Both the position numbers and the translations under genes were made by a program. The notes below the pieces were generated by a model that had not been told where the DNA came from, did no database searches, and saw only the letters and a list, made by a program, of their open reading frames with translations. A DNA stretch of 21,353 bases, from positions 1 to 21,353 of the IMG/VR virus record IMGVR_UViG_3300006870_000114. The stretch is one strand, 5' to 3'. The DNA comes from a virus. Positions 1 through 18,700 of the stretch are shown piece after piece. Position 1 is the first letter of the stretch. Each line of letters opens with the position of its first letter.

Positions 1-3000
1 GAGGAAAGACATACTATAAGTTGTCTCTCTTTGTTGGTTACGGTGACAAATCAAATATTCAAGGATTATTTGATATTACACAGAGTACGAAGTGCTTAGA
101 AGAAACTTTAGCAGGATCTACAGTTTTATCAGTAGATTCTACTATTGGATTTCCACAGAGTGGAACTATATATTCCGGAAATAATACAATTTCATATTCC
201 AATAAAAGTGTTAATCAGTTTTTGGGTTGTTCTGGAATTGAAAGCACTATTTCTTCAACAGATGATGTAAGATCTAATGAAACTTACTATGGTTATGAAA
301 ATGGAGATATTTCTAAAAAAGTCGAATTTAGAACAACTGGCGTTTTATCAAAATTTGTTCCCAAATCGGAATCAATTTTTGTCGAAGAGGGGCAAATTCT
401 ATCAATAAAAAGTCTTGGTGAACGTGTAATTAACAGAGAAACTAATAATAATTATAAAGAAACTTTTGCAAATAGTTGGATTTATAATACATCATCTACG
501 GTTGAGATAGATTCTTTTACTAATGGTGGTGTTATTTTAAAGTCTGTGGTAGATAAATCTCAATTTAAAGTTGGTGATAAAGTAGAAATTATAGATTCAT
601 ATAGTGGAGAAATTAAATATCCGACTCAATCTGATGACATTCCATATATTTCTTCCTTTGATAGAAGTTCTTTATTACTTTCTTTGAACAATTTCAGCAA
701 TTTTATTTCAGAATCTTCAGGAGTTTATTCCATTCGAAGAAAAATAAACAAAGCATCAAGTGATTCGGTTTCCATCGAATATGGAAATAATAAAATTATC
801 TCAGATATTCAAAATGTTTATTTTGATGAAGATAATTTTGCATATGTAGCATCCAATTCTTTACCATCATCAAAGGATTTTGAAAATATTTCATATACTT
901 ATAATCTAAGTGCATTTTTAAATAGTTCTTCTATCAATCAAAATAGTGGTCAATTGTCTGATGTTGATGAAGAATATAGTCTAACTTCAGAAACTAAAGT
1001 ATATACTTCTATACAATTTGATCAAAAGGTAAACTTTGTAACTGGAGATAGTATTTACTATGAACCAGAAAATAGTTCTATCGCTGGATTAACAACAGGA
1101 ACATATTATGTTGAAGTTGTAAAAACTTCCGATCCATCCACAAATAAAAGAAAGATAAAGTTGTATGGATCTAGATCATTTATTGGTGATAATGCAAATT
1201 CTATAAGACTTTCTTTTCCCAATGGAATAGATGGAAATCATAATTTTACATTATCTTCACAAAAATCAAAATCCATATTGCCAAACAAAAAATTTAAAAA
1301 ATTTAAATTAGAGCAAAATTTAAATGATGGAACTAAAGAAAAAACAATTCCTGGAAGCATTGGTATGCTTATCAATGGAGTTGAAATTGATAATTGGAAA
1401 GTTAATGATATAGTTTATTATGGTAATTTAGTTAGAGTTGAGATTTTAAATGGTGGCGATGAATTTGATGTTATAAACCCACCAAAGTTAGAGGTTTCCT
1501 CTGGAGCAGGAACTACTGCTCTAGTTCAACCAGTTGTTAAGGGATCGGTAAAGGAGATACTAATTGATGAGAAAGATTTAATTGTAGAAAAAGTCTTATC
1601 AATCAATGTTTCTGGTGGAAATGGAACTGGTGGAATTTTTAAACCAATATTGTCTAAGAAAAGAATTGAAGTATTATTTGATGCTAGAACCACAACTAAT
1701 GGGGGCGGAATTAGCACAACAACATCACAACTCACATTTTTAACCAATCACAATTTTGTTAATGGTCAAGAAATTATATACAGAAATTCTGGTCAAACAT
1801 CAATTCTAATAGGTGCTGGAACATCTTCTTTGATTGATAATAAATCATACTATGTTAGAGTTGATAATAATACAACTGTAAAATTATATGAGAATTTAGA
1901 TGATTATAATTCAAATAATTTTATAACTTTTGAACCAACTTGGGGAGAGGGTGGAATTCAAAAGTTTGTTTTTAATGAAATTAATAACATTTTAAGCGAT
2001 ATTCAGATTATTGATGGTGGAGAATTTACTAATAGAAAATTGATCGTAAAATCTTCCGGCATATCAACTACAAGAAATACAATTAATTTTGAAAATCATG
2101 GATTTTCTACTGGCGAACTCATTGAGTATTCTTCAGATTACCCAATTTCAGGAATTCAAACGACCAATCAATATTATGTTGTAAAGGAAACTGATAATTC
2201 ATTCAAATTATGTGATGCTGGTATTGGTGGAACAAATACAACTAATTTTAATTCTAGAGTTTTTTCAGTATTCTCCTCTCAAGGAACTGGATATCAAACT
2301 TTCAAATATCCAGATATAACAGCAAATATAGAATATACTACGGTAGGAATTGCAACTACAACTCAATCTAGATCCATTATACTAACTCCCGTTGTAACAG
2401 GTAAAATTAATTATCTATATCTTTATGAAAAGGGAACCAAATATGGATCAACAGTTTTAAATTTACATAAAAATCCCGATGTATCGGTCAAAATTGGAAG
2501 AGATGCTCAAGTATCTCCAATTATTCAAAATGGTTTTCTTGGAGAAGTAAACCTTGAATTTGGTGGTGAAGAATATTTTTCAACTCCAGATTTAGAAGTT
2601 TTTGACCCAACAGGATCTGGATCTGGTGCTAAGTTAAGAGCTGTTGTTTCTAATGGATCAATTACTGATGTAAAGGTAATTAGAACTGGAATAGGATATT
2701 CCAGTTCTACTGTCGTCAATGTATTACCAAGGGGAATTAACTTTGTCGAGAAGGTTGTTGTAGATACTGAAGTGAGATCACTCACAGTAAATAATGTCAA
2801 TAAAACTGATTCTAAGCAATATGAAATTTTAAGAGACGATGATAAATTGCAGTATTCTGTTTCTGCATATTTTGATACTCTGAGATCATCCTTTGAGGAT
2901 GATGGGAGCACAACTTCAAAAATTATTGGTTGGGCATATGATGGTAATCCGATTTATGGATCCTATGGATCGGTAGATCCTCAGAATGTTAGTTCTGGAA

Positions 3001-6000
3001 TAAAAACTATGACCTCCGGATATACTTTAGATGTATCCAACGTTGAAGATAGACCAAGTGATTTTGATCCCGGATTTTTTATTGAAGATTATCAATATAC
3101 TGGAACTGGAGATTTGGATGAGCATAATGGAAGATATGCAAAAACTAATGAATTCCCAAATGGAATATACGCATATTATGCGACTATTGATCCAATAACC
3201 AATATTCCAGTATTTCCATATTTTATTGGACAATCATTTAGATCAAAAACTATAGAAGAAAATAATACCTTAAATCAAAGTTTTGATTTTAATGAGTCAT
3301 CTTTGCTTCGCAATACATTCCCATATAAAATTTCCGAATTGAATTCTAGTAATGATTTTATTATTGAGACTAATGAAATTTCAACTCAGGAAATTGTTGT
3401 TGAGTCAATTCAACAAGGATCTATTGACAGTATTGACATTTTAAGTAAAGGTTTGGATTATAAAGTAGGTGAAAAACTAAACTTTGATAATACTGATACA
3501 GAAGGATCTGATATTGAGGCAGAAATCTCTTCCATTGAAGGTGGAAATATTGAAAATATTACTTCAGTAATTTCGGAGTATAGTGACTCCCCATTAATTT
3601 GGAAAAATGAAAATACTATAAGAGTCTATACAAATTCTTCAAATGAAATTAATAACAATGATTATGTGATTATTTCTGGTCTTAGCACGTCTATCAAATC
3701 TTTAAGTGGTTCTTATAAAGTTTCAGTTCCTTCTAATGTAAGTGTTGGAATAACGACAGATATTATTGGATCTGGATCAGAATCTACCGAAATTTACTTA
3801 TCCAATATTCCATCTAATGTCTCCATAGGCAACAGCATCACAATAGGATCAGAAACTGCAGAAGTTTTAAATGTTTATCCAACAAAAAATATTTTAACTA
3901 TTAAGAGGGGATCTCCAAATACATTACATACTGTTGGCACTGCAGTAACTTTTAATAATAATTATTTTGATATTAAAAAAAATACAAATAAATTTGAATC
4001 AGAATTAAAGAGAAAAATTTATTTCAACCCTAATGAGTCTGTTGGTGTAGGAACAACAGCAGGAACTGGTGTCACAACATCATTTAATCTTGGACAAGAG
4101 ACTATCTCCAGATTTTTACTTACGCAAAGAATATATCTAGAAAATCATCAACTTGAAACTAATCAAATAATTACATTCAATGTCAATAATAATGGTGCGA
4201 TTTCAATTTCAACAACACCAACTTCTACACAATTTGATTTACCAACATCAGTATATGCTGTAAATAAATCTCCAAATGCAATTGGAATTAAAACAACATT
4301 AACAGGAAATGAGGTTTTCTTCCGTTCAAATGGCGATAATGTTGATGATTATTATTTTGAAACAAATCCAACTCAAAAGACAGCAGATGTAAAAATTATA
4401 AAATCAACTGTTGCTATTTCTAGTGCTCATGGTTTAAGTTTTGGTGATGAAATAAAGTTAAGTGTTAAACCAAATCTTTCTGTAGGCATTGGAACTTCAA
4501 CGGCAGTTAGAGTTATTATAAATGAAAACACTAATAAAATTGAAATAAATCCAGTAGGGTTCACATCTTTAGGAATCAATACTGCAACCAATGAAATTAC
4601 TTTAGAAAATCATCAGTTTAATAGTGGAGACAAAGTATATTATGATTCTACTGAAGTCGCTTCAGGATTGACTACTGGAAGTTATTTTGTTTCCGTTGTT
4701 GATCAAAATAAAATTTATCTTTCAAACAGTTATTTTAATTCGATAAAAGATGATCCTACCATAGTTAGTATTGCAGGAACTGGTGGAAATTCCCATACAT
4801 TATCTTTAATAAATCCAAAATTAACTTCTATCAGGAATAATAATCTGGTATTTGATCTTTCAGATTCTTCTCTGAACGGATATAAGTTCAAACTGTATTA
4901 TGATTCTGAATTTAATAATGAATTTGTTTCCACAGGAACAACATCAGTGTTTACTGCTATTGGTGTTGGAACCATTGGTGTTTCTACAAACGCATCAGTT
5001 ACTATAAATTATAGTGAAAATCTTCCAGAAAGATTGTATTATAATTTAGAAAAATCTGGATATATCAGCACTTCTGATACGGAAGTTAAAAATTATAATG
5101 AAATTTTATTTGTAAACAGTTCATTTAATAATTCATATTCTGTTTCTGGTATCGGAACAACTACTTTCCAGATAACTTTGAGAGATGATGATGAAAAGAC
5201 AGACTATACAGAGTCTGAATGTGATGTTTTAGAATACACCACAACTTCTCTGTCTGCAACTGGGTCAGTTAACACTGTAAGTATTAAGTCTTTTGGAAGT
5301 AGATATAGAAAATTACCTACATTTACAAAAGCTACAACTGATAGTGGAAATGGTCTTTTTGTCACGGCAAATTCAAAAACAATTGGATCTGTAAAATCAA
5401 CCAGAATAATTAATGAAGGATTTGAATATTCGTCAGATAAAACTTTGTTACCAAAAGCTTCAATTTCTCCAAAAGTAACTTTAAAAAATTCCAATCAAGT
5501 TGGAATAGTTACAGTTACAAGCGGAGGAAGGGGATTTTTATCCCCCCCCAATATTGTTACGGTAGATAAGATAACAAGAAATGTTATTCAAAATGGATTA
5601 ATAACACCAGCAATGAATGGCGGAACAATTTCAAACATATTAATAGAAGATTCTCCGAAAGGATTGACAGATAATTCCGTAGAATTGTTTACTGTTAATA
5701 ACACAAATGGAATTTCAATTAAGAGTGTTAATTCAATATCTCCAACAGAATTCGTATGCGTTTTAACTACGCCACAACCTTTAGGTTTTACAACTGATCC
5801 ATTTGCAATTGGTGATTTTGTATTTCTTGAAGGAATTCAAAAATATGGAACCGAAGGAACAGGATTCAATTCTTCAGATTATGGATATAAATTATTTAAA
5901 ATTACAAACTATGATTCTACCAGTCTTACAGATGATCAATTAACTGTAAATGTTGCTGGTTTGACGACCAATACTGGAATTGCAAAAACTATTCAAGATT

Positions 6001-9000
6001 CTACAGGAATTGCAATTCATAAAGATAATTATCCAACATTTGATGTTACAATAATTCCTTCATTCTTTAAAGTAGGAGAGCAACTGACTGTAAATAATAT
6101 TGATAGAAATATTATTGTTCGTCAGCACACCAATGATACTGATTTTAGAATTGATGCATCATATGACTTGATACCAGGAGAAGTAATTAGAGGTAAAAAT
6201 TCAGGAGTTCTGGCTACAATAGAAAGTGTCGTGAATTATGACGCACAATTCGAAACTTCATACTCTATTAAAAGAAACGAGGGTTGGGATTCTGATATTG
6301 GATTCTTAAGTGAGGATTATCAGGTATTGCCCGATAACGATTATTATCAAAATCTTTCTTATTCTATAAAGAGCCCACAATTATGGAAAGATATCAAATC
6401 ACCGGTCAATAATTTAGTTCATAGCGTTGGCATGAAGAATTTTGCCGACTCTACCTTTGAATCATTGACAGGAACAGCAAATACAATTACTGCTTTTACA
6501 GATATTGATATAACACTAGATCTGGATGAAGTATTAAGAGTAGATACTATTAATAATTATGATTATACCAGAGATGTTGATGTTGTAGATAATGTTTCTA
6601 GATTTTTAGAGTTCAAGAATGAAAGATTTATTGCATATGGGGAATCTAGAACTAATGTTGTTTTAAGAATAGATGATCTCAGTGATCAATTTTCACAGTT
6701 TGAATCAAATCCGGTACAATATCTTAATATATTTGAACTTGATAGTAATGAACTGTATAGAGATTATATCTTCAAGATAAGAAATCTGGAAAATGATAAA
6801 GTTCAGTTAACTACTTTAAAGTTAGCAAGTAACTTTGATGGCAACTTTATTCATGAAAAAGAATCATTATCAAATAAAGAAGATTTATCTCTTCACGGAG
6901 ATTTTGATTTAGTAACAAATGAATTTGGAGAGACATTCTTAAGATTTATTCCTGAAAATCCATTTGATGATGATTTTGATATTAAATATATTGAAAGAAA
7001 GTTCACTATAGGAGTTGGAATTGCAACAACATCAATTGGGTCGGTTGATGTCACATCTTATTCCGGAATTGTTACTACAGGAACAGGTGGAATAACATCA
7101 TCAATACTTAGTGTGGATTCCAATACTTATAATTCATTCTATGTTTCTGCTCAAATTGAAACTGGAACAACTAGTGAAATGAATTTTGCTGAAGTTTATG
7201 TTACTCATGATGGAACTGATGGTTATATTGCAGAAAATTATTTTGATTCATCCAAAAATAACATAACAACTAGTGGAATTGGAACGTTTGGTGTAGATTT
7301 GAATTCTGGTTTATTCAAATTAAACTATACCAATAATCATCCAGAAAATGTATTAATTAATGCCAGAATACTTCAGTTTAAATCAGTAGGTGTTGGTGGA
7401 ACATATAGATTTGCTCTTTCGGGTCAACCAGCAGGTAATGAAAGATCTGCAGTTTATCAAACAAATTATGCAACTGCAACTGATACAACACTTCCTATTG
7501 AAATATTCACACTAGATAAGAATAACTTTGATGCAGTTTCATCTACAATTCAAGTCGAAGTTACTGGTTCTACCGATACGACTTACAATGGTTCTGCAGT
7601 CTATGGTGTTTCTTTTGTTCATGATATTACTGATAGTTTTACACAAACTAGACATGCATTATTTGGCACTGATGACATCGCTGGCATAGGAACTTTCGGA
7701 GCAGAATTGGTTAATAATGATTTTACGATTAATTTTTATCCATTTAGAACTGGTTCTGGAACTGGAACAATAAAAATTACATCTTTGTCAGAGGTATTCT
7801 ACACAGATACAGATTTTATCAATGAACCTCCAGATCTTATATTTGGAACAGGAGTAGAAAGTTTCAAGACAGTAGCATATTTGGCAATTGATGGTGAAAG
7901 AATCAATAAGAAAAACTTTGTCTTAAGAAGTGAAGGTACTCCAATTTTTGCAAAGACGTTTGACCCTTCCGATTCTAGTAAGGTAAATCTTTCTACTGGT
8001 GTATTTTCAATACAAGATCATTTCTTTAGCAATGGTGAGGAATTAGTTTATACACCAAAATCAACCTTTGTTGGAGTTGGATCAACTCCTATGATGTATA
8101 AAAACGGATCTGTTGAAGATGTATTACCATCAACAGTATTTGCAATTGTAGAAAACCAAGACTTTGATACCTTCCAAATTTCTACGACCAGATCTGGAAC
8201 TGCTGTTACTTTTACATCTATAGGTGAAGGTAATGCTCATGTATTTGCCATGGCAAAAAGAAATGAAAAGGCGATCATAACCATTGATAATATGGTTCAA
8301 TATCCAATAGCATTCAATGGCGTAGTTCATTCCTTAAGTGGAAATGGTGGAAGTATTTCTACAGAATCTACATTATTTGCTCTTTCTGGCATACAAACAG
8401 TATCACCATATAATATTTTGAAAATTGATGATGAATATATGAATGTTATAAATGTTGGATTAGGAACTACAAATGTTGGACCAATAACTGGAATTGGAAC
8501 AGAAACTCTTGTTCAGGTTGAGCGTGGATTTGTTGGATCATCAGCAACTGCACATAATGATTCATCTCAAGTGAATGTTTATCGTGGTAATTACAATATT
8601 GTTGATGATGAAATTTACTTTGTTAGGGCACCAAGGGGAAATGTTTCAATAACTAGAACTGGCAGCAATTTAGAATTTGAGACTTCGGATTTCTTAGGAA
8701 GAGTATTCTTGAGGAAAAACTATGATACAAGTCAAGTATTTGATGATTTCTCAAATAATTTCACTGGAATCGGAAACACTTATACTTTGACTGTTGGTGG
8801 AGCAAACACTACAGGAATTGGAACTTCTGGTGGAAATGGTATTGTATTTGTTAATGGCATTTTCCAAACACCAACCACAGAAAATAATCCAAATAATAAT
8901 TTCAGTATTATTGAGGGTGTTGGTATTAGTAGCATGGTGTTTAGTGGTATTAGAGACAATACTAATACTCAAGTAATATCAGCGTCTGATGTCAATCAAA

Positions 9001-11105
9001 ATCAACTTCCAAGGGGTGGAATTATTGTTTCCTATGGATCATCAGGTGGACTTGGTTATGCACCTCTTGTAGGAGCGTCTGTAACGGCTGTGGTAAGTGG
9101 TGGCGTTATTCAAAATAGTATTGGCATTGGTGCTACAGACAATGTTGGATCTGGATATAACGGATTAGTTTCAATTGGTGTTAGTGTCTATGAAGAAAAT
9201 CATTCTGGCGATGTTGCATCAATTACTGCTACAGTTGGTGCTGGCGGAACATTAACTTTTAATGTTACTAATGGTGGAACTGGATATAATAATCCACAAA
9301 TATTTGTTTCCCCACCTTCATATGAAAACTTGGAAGTTGTTGGTGTTTCTAGAGTTGGTTTTGGATCAACCACTGATACTGGAGTAGGATTATTAGTTGA
9401 TATTGAAATTGGTGCAGCATCTACAACGGGTATTGGTTCAACAACATTTGAAGTAAAGGGATTTAGGGTCAAGAGACCTGGATATTCTTTTAGAAAAGGA
9501 GACAAGTTTACTCCTGTTGGATTAGTTACTGCAAAAGGATTATCTGAACCAATTTCACAATTTGTTCTTGAGGCAACTGAAACATATAGTGATAATTTTG
9601 CATCATGGCAGTTCGGAGAACTTGACTTCATTGATTCTATTAAAAATTATCAAGATGGTTCTAGAGTAAGATTTCCATTGTATTATAATACTTCTCTTAA
9701 GAGTTTTGAAAAGCAAGTTGGATCTAGAGTTAATCTCCAAAATGCATTAATTATTATCATCAATGGCATTATTCAAGATCCTGGAGTGAATTATGTGTTT
9801 GATGGAGGAACCGCAGTAACATTTACTGAGGCACCAAAACCTGGAGATGATGTTGCAATATTCTTCTATAGAGGAACTCGTGGGGAGGATGATTTCCAGT
9901 TAGACAATATTATTCCAAGTATTGAAAGAGGTGATTTATTAAATGTCAATCGCAACCCATTAGTTGTAGATTCAATATCTCAAAATCAAAGAACGGTAAT
10001 CGATTTGCCAACATCAGATGTAGTAGAAACTGCTGCATATAGAGAGCAGGGTATTGAATCAATATATAAACCAACTTCTTGGACTAAGAAAAAATCTGAT
10101 AAATTTATCAATGGTGAATTTATTTTTAAAACTAGAGATTCTATTAGATCACAAACTTATCCGACTGCAAAAATCATAAAAGATATTTCTACAACAGATA
10201 CAAAAATATTTGTAGATAATTCAGAATTCTTTACCTCTGGTGGATCTAACCCCGATTTTGAATTTATTATTGTTGATCAATCACAAAATAATATTTCTGC
10301 AGAATTTACAGTTTCCGTTGGAACTGGAGGAACAATTTCTGATGTTGAAATTACAAACCCTGGTTATGCATATACTGGATCTACAGTAAATCTGAGATTT
10401 TCTTCTCCAATATTAGAAAATAATAATTGGCCAACTGTTTCTACTGGAATTGGAACTACAGCAACAGCAACAGCAACTGTAGGATCTGGAGGAACTTTAA
10501 CCTCTGTCACTATAACAAATCCCGGATATGGATATACTGGTTCTGTTTTTGTAATTGCAGATCATCATGAAGTTAAATTTGAAAATACTGGATCAAATTC
10601 ATTATTGAGTGTTAAGGGTTTCTCTGGAATTGTTACTGGAATTGGAACCACTGATAATTCTGGGCAATTGGCATTAAAGTTTTACTTGGATAGAGAAACT
10701 TTGGCATTTAATAATTCTAGTGATGCTCCAATAGCAACTTATCCAATCTTTATCTATGATACACAGATTGGTTCTGGAGTTACTTCAGTTGACAATTCAG
10801 ATTCTGCTGTTGTTGGAATTGGAACCACTTTCCTTGACAATATTTACTATATTAATCAGATTACATATGATGGAACTGTTGGTATAGCAACTTGCAATAT
10901 TGATTCCGGAACTGATATAACTGGATTATCCACTAGTGGTGATTTTGTTGGAAGATTCTCTTGGGGATTATTTGATGGTGTATCTAGATCTTCATCACCA
11001 ATTTCCATTGGAGTAACAGGAAAAACAGTTAATTCGGGTCTATCTACTTTCCCATTCATTCAAAGAAGGAAATATGGATTAAGAGATACTGGTGCAATAC
11101 TATAA
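1..11105 (+). CDS. Giant baseplate/virion structural protein in the T4 gene 7 position, 5' partial
   Basis: Probably a baseplate wedge component of a marine T4-like phage. It lies directly upstream of a gp8-like gene, where T4 has gene 7; the gp7 role is inferred from gene order, since I cannot align it with T4 gp7 (about 1,030 residues). The frame is open from base 3 (GKTYYK, then LSLFVGYGDKSN), so the TTG at 21 is probably an internal leucine codon and the gene starts outside the window. GAGGAAA at 1-7 could mimic a ribosome site for that TTG. Residues below count from the TTG. Residues 960-1075 form a YHYH-like domain (DGNPIYG, LDEHNGR, YAYY, FPYFIG). At least six H-x-F-x-x-G modules and many G-x-G-Y modules recur. 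IDNMVQYP (2755), VNGIFQTP (2944) and INGIIQDP (3247) mark three related segments. The C-terminus, RRKYGLRDTGAIL, is typical of the cyanophage family. No signal peptide or membrane segment is evident. Confidence 0.85.
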   Translation, partial: GKTYYKLSLFVGYGDKSNIQGLFDITQSTKCLEETLAGSTVLSVDSTIGFPQSGTIYSGNNTISYSNKSVNQFLGCSGIESTISSTDDVRSNETYYGYENGDISKKVEFRTTGVLSKFVPKSESIFVEEGQILSIKSLGERVINRETNNNYKETFANSWIYNTSSTVEIDSFTNGGVILKSVVDKSQFKVGDKVEIIDSYSGEIKYPTQSDDIPYISSFDRSSLLLSLNNFSNFISESSGVYSIRRKINKASSDSVSIEYGNNKIISDIQNVYFDEDNFAYVASNSLPSSKDFENISYTYNLSAFLNSSSINQNSGQLSDVDEEYSLTSETKVYTSIQFDQKVNFVTGDSIYYEPENSSIAGLTTGTYYVEVVKTSDPSTNKRKIKLYGSRSFIGDNANSIRLSFPNGIDGNHNFTLSSQKSKSILPNKKFKKFKLEQNLNDGTKEKTIPGSIGMLINGVEIDNWKVNDIVYYGNLVRVEILNGGDEFDVINPPKLEVSSGAGTTALVQPVVKGSVKEILIDEKDLIVEKVLSINVSGGNGTGGIFKPILSKKRIEVLFDARTTTNGGGISTTTSQLTFLTNHNFVNGQEIIYRNSGQTSILIGAGTSSLIDNKSYYVRVDNNTTVKLYENLDDYNSNNFITFEPTWGEGGIQKFVFNEINNILSDIQIIDGGEFTNRKLIVKSSGISTTRNTINFENHGFSTGELIEYSSDYPISGIQTTNQYYVVKETDNSFKLCDAGIGGTNTTNFNSRVFSVFSSQGTGYQTFKYPDITANIEYTTVGIATTTQSRSIILTPVVTGKINYLYLYEKGTKYGSTVLNLHKNPDVSVKIGRDAQVSPIIQNGFLGEVNLEFGGEEYFSTPDLEVFDPTGSGSGAKLRAVVSNGSITDVKVIRTGIGYSSSTVVNVLPRGINFVEKVVVDTEVRSLTVNNVNKTDSKQYEILRDDDKLQYSVSAYFDTLRSSFEDDGSTTSKIIGWAYDGNPIYGSYGSVDPQNVSSGIKTMTSGYTLDVSNVEDRPSDFDPGFFIEDYQYTGTGDLDEHNGRYAKTNEFPNGIYAYYATIDPITNIPVFPYFIGQSFRSKTIEENNTLNQSFDFNESSLLRNTFPYKISELNSSNDFIIETNEISTQEIVVESIQQGSIDSIDILSKGLDYKVGEKLNFDNTDTEGSDIEAEISSIEGGNIENITSVISEYSDSPLIWKNENTIRVYTNSSNEINNNDYVIISGLSTSIKSLSGSYKVSVPSNVSVGITTDIIGSGSESTEIYLSNIPSNVSIGNSITIGSETAEVLNVYPTKNILTIKRGSPNTLHTVGTAVTFNNNYFDIKKNTNKFESELKRKIYFNPNESVGVGTTAGTGVTTSFNLGQETISRFLLTQRIYLENHQLETNQIITFNVNNNGAISISTTPTSTQFDLPTSVYAVNKSPNAIGIKTTLTGNEVFFRSNGDNVDDYYFETNPTQKTADVKIIKSTVAISSAHGLSFGDEIKLSVKPNLSVGIGTSTAVRVIINENTNKIEINPVGFTSLGINTATNEITLENHQFNSGDKVYYDSTEVASGLTTGSYFVSVVDQNKIYLSNSYFNSIKDDPTIVSIAGTGGNSHTLSLINPKLTSIRNNNLVFDLSDSSLNGYKFKLYYDSEFNNEFVSTGTTSVFTAIGVGTIGVSTNASVTINYSENLPERLYYNLEKSGYISTSDTEVKNYNEILFVNSSFNNSYSVSGIGTTTFQITLRDDDEKTDYTESECDVLEYTTTSLSATGSVNTVSIKSFGSRYRKLPTFTKATTDSGNGLFVTANSKTIGSVKSTRIINEGFEYSSDKTLLPKASISPKVTLKNSNQVGIVTVTSGGRGFLSPPNIVTVDKITRNVIQNGLITPAMNGGTISNILIEDSPKGLTDNSVELFTVNNTNGISIKSVNSISPTEFVCVLTTPQPLGFTTDPFAIGDFVFLEGIQKYGTEGTGFNSSDYGYKLFKITNYDSTSLTDDQLTVNVAGLTTNTGIAKTIQDSTGIAIHKDNYPTFDVTIIPSFFKVGEQLTVNNIDRNIIVRQHTNDTDFRIDASYDLIPGEVIRGKNSGVLATIESVVNYDAQFETSYSIKRNEGWDSDIGFLSEDYQVLPDNDYYQNLSYSIKSPQLWKDIKSPVNNLVHSVGMKNFADSTFESLTGTANTITAFTDIDITLDLDEVLRVDTINNYDYTRDVDVVDNVSRFLEFKNERFIAYGESRTNVVLRIDDLSDQFSQFESNPVQYLNIFELDSNELYRDYIFKIRNLENDKVQLTTLKLASNFDGNFIHEKESLSNKEDLSLHGDFDLVTNEFGETFLRFIPENPFDDDFDIKYIERKFTIGVGIATTSIGSVDVTSYSGIVTTGTGGITSSILSVDSNTYNSFYVSAQIETGTTSEMNFAEVYVTHDGTDGYIAENYFDSSKNNITTSGIGTFGVDLNSGLFKLNYTNNHPENVLINARILQFKSVGVGGTYRFALSGQPAGNERSAVYQTNYATATDTTLPIEIFTLDKNNFDAVSSTIQVEVTGSTDTTYNGSAVYGVSFVHDITDSFTQTRHALFGTDDIAGIGTFGAELVNNDFTINFYPFRTGSGTGTIKITSLSEVFYTDTDFINEPPDLIFGTGVESFKTVAYLAIDGERINKKNFVLRSEGTPIFAKTFDPSDSSKVNLSTGVFSIQDHFFSNGEELVYTPKSTFVGVGSTPMMYKNGSVEDVLPSTVFAIVENQDFDTFQISTTRSGTAVTFTSIGEGNAHVFAMAKRNEKAIITIDNMVQYPIAFNGVVHSLSGNGGSISTESTLFALSGIQTVSPYNILKIDDEYMNVINVGLGTTNVGPITGIGTETLVQVERGFVGSSATAHNDSSQVNVYRGNYNIVDDEIYFVRAPRGNVSITRTGSNLEFETSDFLGRVFLRKNYDTSQVFDDFSNNFTGIGNTYTLTVGGANTTGIGTSGGNGIVFVNGIFQTPTTENNPNNNFSIIEGVGISSMVFSGIRDNTNTQVISASDVNQNQLPRGGIIVSYGSSGGLGYAPLVGASVTAVVSGGVIQNSIGIGATDNVGSGYNGLVSIGVSVYEENHSGDVASITATVGAGGTLTFNVTNGGTGYNNPQIFVSPPSYENLEVVGVSRVGFGSTTDTGVGLLVDIEIGAASTTGIGSTTFEVKGFRVKRPGYSFRKGDKFTPVGLVTAKGLSEPISQFVLEATETYSDNFASWQFGELDFIDSIKNYQDGSRVRFPLYYNTSLKSFEKQVGSRVNLQNALIIIINGIIQDPGVNYVFDGGTAVTFTEAPKPGDDVAIFFYRGTRGEDDFQLDNIIPSIERGDLLNVNRNPLVVDSISQNQRTVIDLPTSDVVETAAYREQGIESIYKPTSWTKKKSDKFINGEFIFKTRDSIRSQTYPTAKIIKDISTTDTKIFVDNSEFFTSGGSNPDFEFIIVDQSQNNISAEFTVSVGTGGTISDVEITNPGYAYTGSTVNLRFSSPILENNNWPTVSTGIGTTATATATVGSGGTLTSVTITNPGYGYTGSVFVIADHHEVKFENTGSNSLLSVKGFSGIVTGIGTTDNSGQLALKFYLDRETLAFNNSSDAPIATYPIFIYDTQIGSGVTSVDNSDSAVVGIGTTFLDNIYYINQITYDGTVGIATCNIDSGTDITGLSTSGDFVGRFSWGLFDGVSRSSSPISIGVTGKTVNSGLSTFPFIQRRKYGLRDTGAIL
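2898..3239 (+). other. YHYH-like domain inside the giant structural protein
   Basis: This is a domain, not a separate gene. In order it shows GWAYDGNPIYG, SYGSVDP, a YTLDVSNVEDRPSDFDPG segment, EDYQYTGTGDLDEHNGR, PNGIYAYYAT and FPYFIGQSF. These match the layout of the YHYH family (PF14240 in my memory): a DG.PIYG loop, an LDE.NGR loop, a Y-x-Y-Y strand and a final P-Y-F-x-G. The central signature here is YAYY, so the family's histidine is replaced by alanine. Its biochemical role in phages is not known to me. Boundaries are approximate and come from the motifs only. Confidence 0.7.
7275..10825 (+). repeat. Dispersed in-frame GGAATTGGAAC repeats coding Gly-Ile-Gly-Thr
   Basis: The 11-mer GGAATTGGAAC occurs at 7275, 8490, 8814, 10446, 10638 and 10815. 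Every copy is in the same codon phase and encodes the turn Gly-Ile-Gly-Thr. Three copies fall within 380 bases near the gene's end. The coordinates give the span of the set; the DNA between copies is ordinary coding sequence. Variants coding GIGT with other codons also occur, for example near 4488. Confidence 0.7.
10317..10548 (+). repeat. Tandem pair of G-x-G-Y beta modules near the giant protein's C-terminus
   Basis: Two copies start at 10317 and 10479, offset by 162 bases (54 codons). Copy 1 reads GTGGTISDVEITNPGYAYTG and copy 2 reads GSGGTLTSVTITNPGYGYTG. They share the pattern G-x-G-G-T-hydrophobic-x-x-V-x-I-T-N-P-G-Y-x-Y-T-G. Between them, at 10458-10475, is a 6-base microrepeat (ACAGCA three times, coding Thr-Ala). 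The strong match over 20 residues points to duplication of one strand-turn unit. It lies within the coding region and does not break it. Confidence 0.75.
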
Positions 11106-11126
11106 AATATAATATATCAAACAACT

Positions 11127-11134
11127 TATAAATA
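11127..11134 (+). promoter_or_regulatory. T4-type late promoter (TATAAATA) upstream of gp8-like gene
   Basis: A perfect TATAAATA octamer, the T4 late promoter consensus, sits in the 47-base gap between the giant gene and the gp8-like gene. It ends 18 bases before the ATG at 11153, so the transcript would have a short leader. In T4-like phages this element replaces both the -35 and -10 boxes and is read by RNA polymerase carrying the phage sigma gp55 with gp33 and the clamp gp45. The short AT-rich octamer can occur by chance, but its location just before a structural gene is what is expected of a real one. Confidence 0.75.
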
Positions 11135-11152
11135 CCTAAAAAACTATGTAAT

Positions 11153-12718
11153 ATGGCTGCCGTCGTAACAGATCAATTTAGAATCCAGAATGCAAATAAT
11201 TTTATAGATTCTGTATTGAACGCTAATAACTCGTATTATGTTTTTGTTGGGTTGTCAAATCCAGGATCTACCAATAATCCTATTGGATTTGGAAGAACAA
11301 CAACTTGGGGAAACGCCGTGTCTCCTTTACCAGACACCCCAATTGACAATTTACAATACTTGTCTCATTACAGAGATACTGGATTATATGGCAAAAGAAT
11401 TACTGGTGAAAATGTTAGGAGAGTCATAAAAAAGATAACCTGGACATCTGGAACTCGTTATGACATGTATAGGCATGACTATAGTATCAGAAATAGAAGC
11501 GTAAATAGTGATAGAGCAAGATTGTATGACTCAAATTACTATGTAATTAACAAGGATTATAGGGTTTATATTTGCTTATATAATGGATCCTCAGGAGATA
11601 ATCCTCAGGGAAATACATCAAAGGATGAACCTATTTTTACAGATCTTGAGCCATCTTCTGCTGGAGAAAGTGGTGATGGATATATTTGGAAATACTTGTT
11701 TACTATTGCACCTTCAGATGTTATAAAATTTGATTCTATTGAATATATTGTTTTACCAAATAATTGGTCAACTTCAAATGATTATCAAATAAGAAGTGTA
11801 AGAGATGCGGGAGATTCTAGAGTAAATAATAATCAAATTAAAGTAGTTTATATTGAAGATGGTGGTGGAGGTGGAGTATATCAATCCGGAACATATCCAA
11901 TTTTAGGTGATGGAACTGGTGGAGAAGTTAACATAACCGTAGATAGCTCAGGAAAAATAACAAATACAAGAGTTGTTAATGGAGGCAAAAATTATACCTT
12001 TGGTATAGTTGACTTAAAGAGATCTGGAACAATCAGTGCTGCGAATAGGGCAAAATTAATTCCAATCATACCTCCATCAAGAGGGCATGGATATGATATC
12101 TACACCGAATTGGGTGCAGATAAAGTTATGGTATATTCAAGATTTGATGATTCTACTAAAGATTTTCCAACAGATACTAAATTTGCTCAAATTGGGATTA
12201 TAAAAAATCCAGAAAGATATGAGTCTTCAGATTTAATGACATCTAGTAATTATTCTGCTCTGGGTGCTATAAAATTGCAAAGTGTTGTTTCAACACCTGT
12301 TGTAGGAACCGCAATTACTCAATCTAGAAGTGATGGAAGACAAGCTTCTGGATATGTGGCATCATATGATTCTACAACTGGAGTTTTAAAATATTATCAA
12401 GATCGATCTTTATATTTCCCAGCAAATAATGTTGATCAACTTGATAGCAACGATATCACAAATCAGGGTCAAGTTTTAGATTTTGAATCTAGTTCAGAAT
12501 CAATTGCTCCATTTGGTGGAAGCGTTGCAATAGCATTTACTGGAAGTACAACAACTGTTAATTCAAAATTAGTTAGTTTGGGTGTAACTTTTACATCTGG
12601 TCTTGCGAATCCAGAGATAAATAAAAGCACGGGAGATATTATTTACATCGACAACAGAAGTTTAGTTTCAAGAGACTCTAGGCAAAAAGAAGACATTAAA
12701 ATTATTCTGGAATTTTAA
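11153..12718 (+). CDS. 8: gp8-like baseplate wedge subunit
   Basis: Baseplate wedge protein of the T4 gp8 type, which in T4 forms a dimer that joins gp7 and gp10 in each wedge. I recognise the marine-phage version: SYYVFVG at 27-33, SGTRYDMYRHDYS at 99-111, LYDSNYYVINKDYRVYICLYNG around 123-145, and SGDGYIWKYLFTIAPSDVIKF at about 173-193. At 521 residues it is clearly longer than T4 gp8 (334 residues). Some of the extra length is a G-x-G-Y module at about 253-290 (DGTGGEVNITVDSSGKI, then VVNGGKNYTFG), of the type repeated in the upstream giant protein. The ATG at 11153 lacks a clear Shine-Dalgarno sequence; MAAVVTDQFR is the expected N-terminus and follows the late promoter at a sensible distance. 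Likely transcribed with the next gene, 6 bases away. Confidence 0.88.
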   Translation: MAAVVTDQFRIQNANNFIDSVLNANNSYYVFVGLSNPGSTNNPIGFGRTTTWGNAVSPLPDTPIDNLQYLSHYRDTGLYGKRITGENVRRVIKKITWTSGTRYDMYRHDYSIRNRSVNSDRARLYDSNYYVINKDYRVYICLYNGSSGDNPQGNTSKDEPIFTDLEPSSAGESGDGYIWKYLFTIAPSDVIKFDSIEYIVLPNNWSTSNDYQIRSVRDAGDSRVNNNQIKVVYIEDGGGGGVYQSGTYPILGDGTGGEVNITVDSSGKITNTRVVNGGKNYTFGIVDLKRSGTISAANRAKLIPIIPPSRGHGYDIYTELGADKVMVYSRFDDSTKDFPTDTKFAQIGIIKNPERYESSDLMTSSNYSALGAIKLQSVVSTPVVGTAITQSRSDGRQASGYVASYDSTTGVLKYYQDRSLYFPANNVDQLDSNDITNQGQVLDFESSSESIAPFGGSVAIAFTGSTTTVNSKLVSLGVTFTSGLANPEINKSTGDIIYIDNRSLVSRDSRQKEDIKIILEF

Positions 12719-12724
12719 GAAAAA

Positions 12725-15700
12725 ATGGCACAAAAAACGAATTTAAATATCAATCCATATTATGATGATTTTGATGCAGATAAAAACTTTTATAAAGTTT
12801 TATTCAAGCCAGGATTTCCAGTTCAATCTAGAGAACTAACGACTTTACAGTCGTTGATGCAAAATCAAGTAGAAAGTTTTGCATCACACACTTTTAAAGA
12901 AGGTTCTGTAATAATTCCAGGAAATATAACATATGATAATCAATTTTATGCGGTAAAGTTAAATTCAAATCAATTTGGAACCGACATATCATTATACATT
13001 GAGAAGTATGTTGGAAAAGTTATACAGGGACAAGTCAGTGGAGTTACTGCAAAAATTCAAAAGGTAGTATTTCCAACAGAAAGTGATAACGTAGAATATA
13101 TTACTTTATATGTAAAATATTTGTCTTCGGATAGTAATTTTGAATTTTCTCAATTTTCCGATGGAGAAACTTTATCTGGTTTAGAAAATATTGTTTATGG
13201 AAATACAACTATTTCTGCAGGAGTTCCTTTTGCTTCAACAATAAGCACTGATGCAACTGCAATTGGATCTGCAGTATCTATTGGCAGTGGTGTATATTTT
13301 ATTAGGGGTTATTTTGTAAGAGTTACTGAAGAAACTATTTTATTAGACTACTATACAAACACACCATCGTATAGAGTTGGTCTGAAGATAACTGAAGATA
13401 TTGTAGATGCAAAAGAAGATGCATCATTATATGACAATGCAAAAGGATTTTCAAACTATACTGCACCAGGCGCAGATAGATTAAAGATAACGGTATCTTT
13501 GTTTAAAAAATCATTATCAGATAAAAATGACTTTGATTTTGTAGAACTCCTGAAACTCAGAGATGGTAAAACTCAAAAAATTACCACAAAGACTCAATAT
13601 AATAAAATTAGAGACTATTTTGCGGAAAGAACTTTTGATGAATCTGGAGATTATACCGTAAATTCATTTGATGTAACAATACATGAGTTGTTAAATGATA
13701 GGTTAGGAAATGATGGATTATTCTTTTCTGATCAAAAAACAGATCAAGGAAATACTCCAAGCGAAGAATTTTTTGGTGTAAAGGTTTCTTCAGGAAAAGC
13801 ATATGTCAAAGGTTATGACATAGAAAAGATTGGAAATACTATAATTGATGTTAAAAAACCAAGAGATACTGAAAAAGTAGAGAATATTCCCATACCTCTT
13901 GATATGGGAAGTATTCTTAGAGTTAATAATGTTACCAGATTACCAGAACTTAGAAAAACGATTGAACTTTATGGGCAACTTGGGTCAACGACCAACAAAA
14001 TTGGAGAAGCGAGAGTTTATTCTTTCAATTTGACAGATGCCCAATATTCTAATGAATCTACAAGTTGGGATTTGAGATTATATGATATTCAGACATACAC
14101 AACACTAACCACAAATACAAATATATCTGTATTGGAATCGGATTTTGTAGTTGGTAAAAGCAGTGGAGCCAGTGGTTATGTTGTTTCCGATTCCAGTGAT
14201 AATATTTTCCAAGTAAGACAAACTTCTGGGGCATTTGCAAAGGGAGAACAACTGTCTATTAATGGCGTTGATGTATCAATATCATTAACAGAAATTCGTG
14301 TTTATAATACTCAAAATATCAAATCAGTAAAACAAACAAACACATTGTTTGGATCCTCTCTGGATTTTACTGCAGATTCTATTTTAGATACTTTCAATTT
14401 CCCAAATTCCATTTCACAGATTTCAATCACTGCTGGGAGTGGTGGTATTTCTACAGTAACGTCAACAGGAAGAGTATTTACTGGAATAAGAACTGATACT
14501 ATCATTAGATATCAAAGTGTCGGATTATCTACAGAAACTTTTAACAGAGTTTCATCAGTTAGTGTTGATGGAACTTCTCTTGAAATTTCACCAATATCAT
14601 CCGTCACTGGTGTTTTTGAAGGCGCATTACCAACGGCAGATATTCAAGTCAATGGATTTTTAGGTGCTCCAATAGTTAAAGGATCTTCCGCACTGTTTGC
14701 ACCACTTTCAAATCAAAATGTATCTGAAATTGACCTTTCAAACTCTTCAATTTTTATAATTGATCAGGTGACGGGCAAAAATGTTGACACTAATGATTCT
14801 ATAACAATTAATCCTAGTGACGTTACTGGCGTAACTGATATAAGTCTAGTTTCTTTTGATCAGGAAAGATATACAGTTGGGTATAATGGAGGAACTATTG
14901 CTCCATTATCATCAGATTCAGCAACACTGAGTGGATCTAATATTTCCTTTACTGGATTGGATCAATCTTTATCATCTTTTAATACTGTTGTAAATGTTAC
15001 GGCGTTAAAAAATAAAATTCAGTCAAAGGTTAAAAATCATACTAGAAGTTCAATAGTCAATATTACTAGGTCGAAATTGGCAGAGTCTGGATCAACATCA
15101 GACACTTCTTTAAATGATGGATTAACTTACAATAGATATAATGGTCTTAGAGTTCAGGATAGAGAAATTTCTCTTAATTATCCAGATGTTACAAAAATAA
15201 TATGTGTTTATGAATCATTAAATTCCAATGCTCCACAGTTAGATGTTGTTTCATTCACATCAACTGCAAATGTAAATTCAAATGTAGTTATCGGAGAAAA
15301 TATCATTGGATCTACAAGTAAAGCAATTGCCAGGGTAGTTACTAATAACAGCACTACTTCCCCAACAACAGGTGATAATAATAAGTTGGGTATAGTATAT
15401 TTAAATGCAAACAAATTTGTTGCTGGTGAAACAGTTACCTTTGAAGAATCTAATATAACCACCACAATCGAATCTATAACTTTAGGTTCTTATCTAGATT
15501 TGACTGCAAATTATGCTCTGGATAAGGGTCAAAGGGATGAATATTATGATTATTCTAGAATTGTTAGAAACTCTGGAACTTCAGAACCATCTAGAAAATT
15601 ATTAGTCGTATTTGACCATTATACAGTTCCTTCAACTGATGCTGGAGATGTATTCACTGTTGCGAGTTATGATGATGAAAGATTTGCAACTGATGTTCCA

Positions 15701-18700
15701 GAAATAGGATTATTCTTGACAAGAGCATCGGATACACTCGATTTCAGACCAAGAGTATCTTATTTCGATCCAAGCGTTACAACAGATAAGTCTCCATTTG
15801 ATTTTAGTTCAAGAACATCTTCATTCAACACAACTCCACTCAGATTACTAGCTTCAGGAGAATCATCTCAAGTCGGATATAACTTTTACCTTCCAAGAAT
15901 TGATAAAGTCTACTTAGATTCTTTGGGTAAGATTGTCATAGATAGTGGTAAATCTTCAACAAATCCATCAGAACCAGACAGAAATAATGATCTACTACAA
16001 TTAGCAACTATTGAACTTCCAGCATATCTTTACAATCCCAAAGATGCTGTTGTTACTCTGATTGACAACAGAAGATATACAATGAGAGATATTGGAAATA
16101 TTGAGGATAGAGTAGAAAATTTAGAAGCAACCACTTCTCTCTCATTCTTAGAAGTAGACACTCAAACTATTCAAATTCAAGATTCTGAAGGTAGAAATAG
16201 ATTCAAGAGTGGATTCTTTGTGGATGATTTTGAAAACTTTTCAAGATTAGATGCTCAAATATCAAATGTTGATATTGATCCAGAAGTAAGAGAACTTACA
16301 CCACTGGTATCAAGAAATAGTGTTGAATCTTTAATTGCACCACAACAAAATACTTCTCCTGAAGACTTAGATCTTGGAGTTGATTTTGAATTATTAGATT
16401 CAAACATTAAAAAGACTGGAAATCTTTTAACCCTCGATTATCAAGAGATTGATTGGTTGGAACAACCATTCGCAACAAAAGTTGAGAATGTTAACCCATT
16501 TAATGTTGTTTTATATATTGGAAATGTTGATTTATTTCCACAAGTTGATACTTGGACTAGAACATTCCAACTTCCAGATCGTAGAGTAACTAGAACTGTT
16601 AACAGAACTGTTAGAAGAACCGCTGTCAGTTCTTCTAGCAGAACTGTAAATCGTGAGGTAAATATTGCAGACCCAAATCGTAGAGGGCAAGTAACAACAT
16701 CAAGTTCTACATCTACTTCAGTGGGTGTTTCTAGATCTTCCAGAACAAGCTCATCTAGTAGCACTGCCAGTAGTCGCGAAATTGTCTCTAGAACTCCTGA
16801 AATTTACATGAGATCTAGAAACACTGAGTTTAAGGTTTCTGAATTGAAACCATTAACAAAGTATTATCAGTTTTTAGATAATAATAGAGAAGTTGATGTA
16901 GTTCCTAAGTTAGTAGAAATTTCTCCAAATCCACAATTACAAACTTATGGTGCCTCTGCCGCATTTAGTGTTGGTGAAACTGTGGTCGGAACAACCTCTA
17001 ATGGTGAATTAATAAGATTTAGATTATGTACTCCAAATCATAAATTTGGAAGTTTTAATAATCCATCTTCAATATTTACTATTAATCCATATTCAAGAGA
17101 AGAAGACATTGGTTCAATTTATAGTTCGACTTCAAAAGTTCTTAATGTAGATACTTCATCTTTAGCTCAACAAGCACAAGGAGCATACTCTGGTTATCTA
17201 GTAAAAGGTATGCAATTAGTTGGTCAAACTAGTGGTGCAATCGCCTATGTTAAAGATATTAGATTAATTTCTGACAATTATGGAGATTTGTTTGGAACAT
17301 TTTTCTTAAAAGATCCTAATACAAGCCCAGCACCTTCTGTCAGAATAGAGACTGGTCGTAAACCATATAGAATCACTTCTAGTCCAACAAATGAAGAACT
17401 ACTTCCCGGAAGTACAGCGATATCATATGCTGAAAGTGAGTATAATGCAACAGGTGTATTTGAACAATGGAGAAATCTATTTGTAACAACAGTTGTTAGA
17501 ACTAGAGTTGTTACAACCAGAGTAAACATTGTAACAACTACAACAAATACTAGAACTGGATATTTTGATCCATTAGCACAAACATTTACCGTTGGTGGAA
17601 ACGTTCAGGTTAAATCAAATATTGATACTGAAGATGATGCAAATGGCGTTTTCTTAACCTCTGTTGATCTATTCTTTGCAAATATTGATACTAATAATTC
17701 TCCACTAAGACTTGAAATTAGAACTGTTGAGTTGGGAACCCCAACATTAAATGTCATTGGTAGATCTGTTACTGTTAGACCCACCGAAGTTAATGCAGTT
17801 GGAAATACAATCACCAACATTAAAAAATCGACAACTGGAACTGTTGCCACAAATATAAAATTCCCAGAACCTATTTTCTTGGCACCAGGGAAAGAATATG
17901 CTCTCGTAATTGTTTCTGAAAATAGTAATGAATATGAATTGTGGACAGCAATCATGGGAGAAGATGTCGTTAGGGATTCCAGTCTTCCAGACGTTAATGT
18001 TGAAAGATATACCCAACAGTTCTCTCTTGGATCACTTTTCAAATCTCAAAATGGATCCATATGGACGACCGATCAATATCAAGATTTGAAATTTAAGTTA
18101 TATAAAGCGAAGTTCATAGAAAACACTGGTACGGCATATTTCTTCAATCCACCTTTAGATTCAAGTAATGGATATGTTAGAACTCTTGCAACAAACCCAA
18201 TAACTGTTTTACCAAAAACAGGAAAAATTGGAATTGTTACTTCATATAATAGTGATTTTATTGGAGTTGTTACTGTTGGAAGAAAACTTGCCGGTGTAAA
18301 TGGATATGGTGGATCTGCAACTGTTGTTGGTCAAGGAAGCTCAGTTGCTACAATTTCTACAACAGAATCTGGAGTAAACTATCCACCAACATTAACCAAT
18401 AAGGTTGTTTCCACTTATAATATTATTGGAAATGGAAGTGGATTGAAGTTAGTTATTAGCACTGATTCAAATGGAGTTATTTCTGGTGCTGCACATTCTA
18501 CAGCAAATCCAGATTATGGAACTGGATATAAAGTTGGGGATGTTGTTGGTATTGTAACCTCAACTACTGGAGTAGGAACTGCTAGAGGTAGAGATGCACA
18601 ATTTACAATTACTTCAATAACTGGTCTTGATACTTTATATCTCTCAAATGTTCAAGGTGAATTTGGCAGTAATGCCGAAAATCATGAATTCTCTGTTCAG

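Follow-up and report, generated by a model that had tools for sequence, protein, structure and literature searches.

A small all-beta module, probably related to domain I of the sheath protein gp18, shared by virion proteins of cyanobacterial phages and their T4-like relatives

Results

The locus and its module copies

The stretch of DNA analyzed here (the window) is the entire virus record IMGVR_UViG_3300006870_000114 of IMG/VR, 21,353 bases long, and carries three large genes on its + strand. Each of them contains the subject of this study, an all-beta module of about 60 residues in which a G-x-G-A turn lies between two G-x-x-Y halves. Copies were located with two profiles, one built only from the gp8 insert of 90 gp8 sequences, the window among them (gp8-only profile), and an iterated one that was trained on the window copies as well.

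3..11105, + strand: gp7-position giant wedge protein, 3700 amino acids, 5' end cut; phrog_2885 baseplate wedge subunit; gene order in relatives
11153..12718, + strand: gp8 baseplate wedge protein, 521 amino acids; PF09215 E=4.1e-13; phrog_438 E=1.5e-156; T4 gp8 (1n7z) Z 17.3
12725..20146, + strand: DUF4815 protein, 2473 amino acids; PF16075 E=4e-57; phrog_358
1434..1565, + strand: doubtful module copy, first protein residues 478-521; iterated E=0.095, inside the range of control matches
2403..2576, + strand: module copy, first protein residues 801-858; iterated E=1.3e-6; overlaps the next copy by half a unit
2544..2714, + strand: best module copy of the first protein, residues 848-904; iterated E=1.7e-15; gp8-only E=4.7e-6 (849-903)
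3420..3563, + strand: module copy, first protein residues 1140-1187; iterated E=0.0012
5265..5438, + strand: module copy, first protein residues 1755-1812; iterated E=4.1e-12; gp8-only E=0.6
5493..5654, + strand: doubtful module copy, first protein residues 1831-1884; iterated E=0.044
9135..9302, + strand: module copy, first protein residues 3045-3100; iterated E=2.2e-4
10272..10394, + strand: module copy, first protein residues 3424-3464; iterated E=9.1e-9; gp8-only E=0.075
10434..10544, + strand: module copy, first protein residues 3478-3514; iterated E=8.6e-10; gp8-only E=0.039
11831..12019, + strand: sole module copy of gp8, residues 227-289; alignment of 95 gp8 sequences and AlphaFold2 model
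11840-12070, + strand: gp8 region structurally matching gp18 domain I, residues 230-306
18341..18544, + strand: module copy of the DUF4815 protein, residues 1873-1940; iterated E=1.5e-6; gp8-only E=1.5e-4 (1876-1925); gp7-position-only E=0.19

The giant first protein thus holds seven clear and two doubtful copies by the iterated profile, the latter (478-521 and 1831-1884) lying in an E range where reversed controls yield three matches in two open reading frames (ORFs). We call it the gp7-position protein because annotated relatives have the gene order gp6, giant protein, gp8, followed by a DUF4815 (VriC/VrlC-like) gene, and because part of the giant protein of Syn30 is annotated as similar to gp7. 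The other two assignments pass the curated cut-offs of their families, with 49.5 bits against Phage-Gp8 (PF09215, cut-off 25) and 194.3 bits against DUF4815 (PF16075, cut-off 30). The nearest named gp8 relatives are those of Synechococcus phages, with identities up to 57.7% in a search that may omit records very near the window.

The three classes of baseplate protein share homologous sequence

An earlier note on this DNA, made from the letters alone, had placed a glycine- and tyrosine-marked strand unit at several sites of the first protein and once each in gp8 and the DUF4815 protein. With family profiles every one of these places is found to hold a unit. The motif as literally written survived only in part, occurring twice in the first protein (residues 3442 and 3496) but not in gp8 or the DUF4815 protein, and it is absent from 200 residue shuffles of each window protein; counting it was therefore set aside as too weak a test to judge gp8. 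A seed of five first-protein copies gave gp8 5.3 bits against 5.1-5.6 bits for the best shuffles and 8.5 bits for the reversed first protein, and an automatic alignment of six copies was dropped as badly aligned. As the five-copy seed cannot part gp8 from controls, family profiles were needed.

At E<=1e-3 the gp8-only profile matched 30 of 90 gp7-position ORFs, 23 of 82 DUF4815 ORFs and 6 other ORFs, while none of 406 reversed and 406 block-shuffled, composition-keeping ORFs was matched at E<=0.1 (one and two, respectively, at E<=1). A profile made from gp8 alone thus reaches the first protein and the DUF4815 protein with clean controls, and the likeness claimed in the earlier note stands apart from shuffled sequence. 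The 406 ORFs include fragments and a duplicate of part of the window (L001), omitted only from the carrier counts for long ORFs given below, and for all counts the related phages are non-independent samples. Conversely, a profile built from 292 gp7-position copies, which had been gathered by a gp8-seeded search and hence do not make a fully independent test, matched the window gp8 at E=5.9e-8, the window DUF4815 protein at E=0.19, and 29 of 82 DUF4815-class ORFs at E<=1e-3. When profiles of gp8 and non-gp8 copies were compared with each other, they matched over the full unit (probability 98.5, E=3.8e-15).

Among long ORFs the module is close to universal, being present in 92/92 gp8 proteins, in each of these exactly once, in 47/47 gp7-position proteins of at least 1900 amino acids and in 34/36 full-length DUF4815 proteins, where Syn30 and S-H38 provide the two without it. 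The gp8 residues G238, Y243, G252, G254, G277, G278 and Y281 are invariant among 42 gp8 sequences.

The gp8 copy is an insert relative to T4 gp8

The suspicion that T4 gp8 lacks room for the module was borne out by profile alignment with 46 T4-type gp8 proteins. Window residues 3-204 pair with T4 residues 10-213 (E=2e-23), and in the global profile alignment about 20 T4 residues, a short linker, stand opposite window residues 205-298; a search of the 46 proteins for the module returned a single match, at E=48. In the alignment of 95 gp8 sequences, ECML-134 and Vibrio phage QD01 have T4-type proteins devoid of the module, and divergent versions of it are seen in gp8 of Sinorhizobium phage phiM7 and in gp8 of Agrobacterium phage Atu_ph04. 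The module is thus inserted in gp8 relative to T4 gp8.

The window gp8 has a second insert, which we considered as a further module copy and rejected, as it proved distinct from the module and is only weakly shared. Part of it (window 12251-12415, residues 367-421) weakly matches the gp7-position protein of phiM7 (E=8.5e-5), gp14 of S-SRM01 (E=1.2e-3) and a gp7-position protein of MA01 (E=0.02), where controls gave no match at E<=0.01 and one reversed plus one shuffled match at E<=0.1. It may represent a second shared module.

The module runs along tail and neck

We searched 13 whole phage records, chosen from the gp8 search matches, with the 42-copy alignment, in a count where matches may be overlapping half units. 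Nine cyanophages gave 8-24 matches each, the rhizobial phages phiM7 and Atu_ph04 one and four, and the two Straboviridae, ECML-134 and QD01, none. The carriers include gp14 neck/head-closure proteins with tandem copies, gp5 hub/tail lysozymes, tail fibres of phrog_17885 and a wedge protein of phrog_719, and clear copies are also found in sheaths, namely of Atu_ph04 (E=4.1e-7) and S-CAM3 (E=3.3e-8 and 1.4e-4). A gp14 stretch of 103 amino acids matches 375 of 50,697 phage records, among whose names are 288 Synechococcus, 58 Cyanophage and 18 Prochlorococcus, with one match each in Escherichia, Salmonella and Xanthomonas. Homologous sequence is therefore present in gp7-position, gp8, DUF4815, gp14, gp5, tail-fibre and some sheath proteins, and the module is confined neither to neighbouring genes nor to the baseplate. 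These findings carry a warning for annotation, as the module-bearing stretch of tail-fibre proteins gives matches to the head-closure family phrog_460.

Copies group by gene

The earlier note had read the sharing as exchange of modules among neighbouring baseplate genes. In an analysis of 333 near-complete copies, with the window and its duplicate L001 counted as two loci, the nearest copy in another locus belonged to the same gene class for 92/92 gp8, 32/36 DUF4815 and 181/187 gp7-position copies; for the window gp8, the next neighbours after L001 are also gp8 copies. At the DNA level, exact matches between different genes reach at most 15 bases among eight window copies; of the pairs of separate copies, the most similar (71% over 66 bases) is formed by the adjacent copies 3424-3464 and 3478-3514 of the first gene. 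No long DNA tract is thus common to copies of different window genes, an outcome that speaks against the gene conversion for which the earlier note had proposed a test. Because copies group by gene and no such inter-gene tract exists, the dispersal is old and inheritance since then has been vertical.

Predicted fold and the probable link to gp18 domain I

In the AlphaFold2 model of the window gp8, block averages of the predicted local distance difference test (pLDDT) range from 88 to 94 over residues 221-290, and six strands are predicted between residues 231 and 305. VIA-align superposed model residues 230-306 on residues 99-186 of T4 gp18 with Z scores of 6.0, 5.7 and 5.4, and on the KP1 sheath with Z 5.1. 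These sheath matches span 70-72 residues at 2.8-3.1 Å (70 residues at 2.8 Å for the best, Z 6.0), and among the 50 structural matches listed the sheaths alone are confined to the module part of gp8. Domain I of gp18 (residues 98-188), a six-stranded barrel with a helix, is itself an insertion; it protrudes, has no role in subunit contacts and attaches to the baseplate as well as to the long fibres in their retracted state. The domain I mutations G106S, S175F and A178V inhibit fibre retraction in T4 (PMC3004832).

The module profile, which was never trained on T4-type sheaths, points to the same site: its best match starts at residues 97-106 in 34/37 non-redundant T4-type sheaths, and 32 of these 34 matches lie above the reversed maximum of 2.0 bits. 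A profile-profile comparison of all copies with the sheath aligned sheath residues 100-146 at E=0.0016, but with a probability of 16%. Where the structural alignment begins, its register lies within about one residue of that of the profile alignment. G106, numbered without the methionine (a numbering that fits all three domain I mutations), stands opposite a glycine present in every one of the 42 copies of alignment A1. For these comparisons the sheath of ECML-134, 99.5% identical to a T4 record, stood in for that of T4. Both elements appear accessory and dispensable, the module being absent from T4-type gp8 and the domain I region from the T4-related sheaths L178, L179 and L186, which have 8-9 residues there versus 101 in T4 (20 of 87 alignment rows). 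The module would thus have the fold of gp18 domain I and is probably its relative, a conclusion supported, though not proved, by profiles and models.

A modest match to the module profile (E=0.0029) was also found in residues 431-505 of the tailspike Dpo31 of the marine podovirus Carin-1, the best stretch being 450-505. Residues 786-1085 of the first protein gave a poorer model; its fold search returned no match at E<=0.001, and the best among the matches listed were immunoglobulin domains of T-cell receptors (Z 4.3). Searches of Pfam, immunoglobulin-like and carbohydrate-binding families included, with 42 copies yielded nothing convincing (best E 0.019, scattered over unrelated families), and NCBIfam held no convincing family for the module copies. 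In sequence searches of the PDB, the whole first protein had no match up to E=1, and the tandem copies of gp14 found lectins at chance level only (E=0.8). Literature listings, limited to open-licence papers and thus a weak negative, showed no description of the module.

Further features of the giant genes

One further domain was assigned in the first protein, directly behind two module copies:

2898..3191, + strand: YHYH domain, first protein residues 966-1063; PF14240 E=1.8e-25

In S-SKS1 (L003 2570-14956 and 16521-23880), four separate ORFs make up the gp7-position gene and two the DUF4815 gene, which reflects either sequencing frameshifts or split genes.

Discussion

The explanation that in our judgment best accounts for these observations as a whole, with a probability of roughly 0.6, is an anciently inserted accessory module that is a relative of gp18 domain I and acts as a docking knob. 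In cyanobacterial phages and their T4-like relatives, a small all-beta module would long ago have become inserted into many virion proteins, each copy being inherited with its gene ever since. It would project from the particle like gp18 domain I and give fibres or adjacent tail parts, and perhaps host glycans too, a surface to dock on; gp8 and the DUF4815 protein would each bear a single knob, and the giant gp7-position protein would bear several. Surface exposure is plausible because the likely relatives protrude, namely gp18 domain I (PMC3004832) and domain D3* of Dpo31 (PMC13317679); position in the particle and docking function we infer by analogy.

Several observations weigh against this explanation. 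A Z score of 6 is within reach of common beta arrangements and below the safe threshold of Z 8. The sheath scores are weak (1.7-11.2 bits), only four sheaths exceeding the best of 1,850 shuffles (8.9 bits), and profile-profile probabilities for sheaths are only 4.6-20%. The model of first-protein residues 786-1085 has a mean pLDDT of 62 and no sheath among its matches listed, an absence that is compatible with the gp18 fold. Among the 50 structural matches listed for gp8, the Carin-1/Dpo31 structure 8ck1 matches residues 91-185 only and not the module. As to inheritance, cross-gene identity is 0.271 within a phage versus 0.265 between phages (Wilcoxon p=0.021, on 312 non-independent copies), and a unit in the giant protein of S-H38 resembles the window gp8 (BLASTP, 37% over 99 columns, E=6e-7). 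This gp8-like unit lies at L006 2326-2619 (residues 776-873) and could be a case of later transfer between gp8 and the giant protein.

The module might instead mediate adhesion to glycans of the host surface, a role proposed for phage immunoglobulin-like domains. Module copies in tail fibres would fit such a role, as would the match to D3* of Dpo31, a domain of an exopolysaccharide-degrading spike (PMC13317679). We consider this doubtful, given that none of the 42 copies convincingly matches an immunoglobulin-like or carbohydrate-binding family of Pfam and that the copies on the neck protein gp14 and the hub protein gp5 are not obviously sited for host contact.

A purely structural role, in which the module would act as a spacer, lengthen or stiffen large virion proteins and bind nothing, is in our view unlikely. 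The overlapping and tandem units of the giant proteins and gp14 would suit a spacer, as would the lack of domain I in some sheaths, noted for L178, L179 and L186. Against it speak signature residues that are invariant in 42 gp8 sequences, the retention of exactly one copy in 92/92 gp8 proteins, and the fibre-docking phenotype of point mutants in T4 domain I (PMC3004832).

Swapping of the module between neighbouring baseplate genes by recombination or gene conversion, as first proposed for this locus, is very improbable. Units in three adjacent window genes, the S-H38 unit close to gp8 and the slight excess of within-phage identity would suit it; against it stand the same-gene nearest copies in all three classes, the want of long shared DNA between the window genes and the many carriers far from the baseplate cluster. 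Convergence of glycine-, threonine- and valine-rich beta strands, to which units rich in G, T, S and V and the failure of the small seed to beat its controls might point, is hardly credible in view of the clean controls of the gp8-only profile, its matches in both other protein classes and the full-unit agreement of gp8 and non-gp8 profiles.

Returning to the docking knob, the point of interest is the possible identity of the module with gp18 domain I. The tails of T4-like cyanophages consist of giant, mostly unannotated proteins, and one profile explains a part of many of them; through its tie to a T4 domain for which mutants are known, proteins labelled "structural protein, unknown" come under a docking hypothesis that can be tested. 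More speculatively, and as a tentative idea only, gp18 domain I may be a single representative of a docking module that forms a common knob from neck to hub along the whole cyanophage tail, where fibres or fibre-like proteins park on many matching sites, and that is restricted to the sheath in enterobacterial T4-like phages.

Comparison with known systems

Outside its inserts, the window gp8 aligns with T4 gp8 (PF09215; Z 17.3), which differs in having neither the module nor the second insert (window gp8 residues ~353-486). The likeness to gp18 domain I (PDB 3FOA, 3FO8) comprises the structural match, the same-site profile match in 34/37 sheaths and the status of an inserted accessory domain. 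The two differ in that identity is low, at 19% of aligned residues, in that T4 has one copy per sheath protein whereas many proteins carry the module here, and in the extra helix of the T4 domain (PMC3004832).

Domain D3* of Dpo31 (PDB 28lx, 8ck1) may, judging from the profile match, be a second solved relative. It is described as an inserted, protruding domain of the spike (PMC13317679); it differs in sitting on a tailspike beta-helix and in being called immunoglobulin-like by its authors. Mobile beta domains of the immunoglobulin-like type are common to unrelated virion proteins, a distribution that the module resembles. An accessory beta domain common to several virion proteins is an element of a known kind (PMC9230969), from whose immunoglobulin-like members the module differs by having no immunoglobulin-like match in Pfam and by its own G-x-x-Y / G-x-G-A signature.

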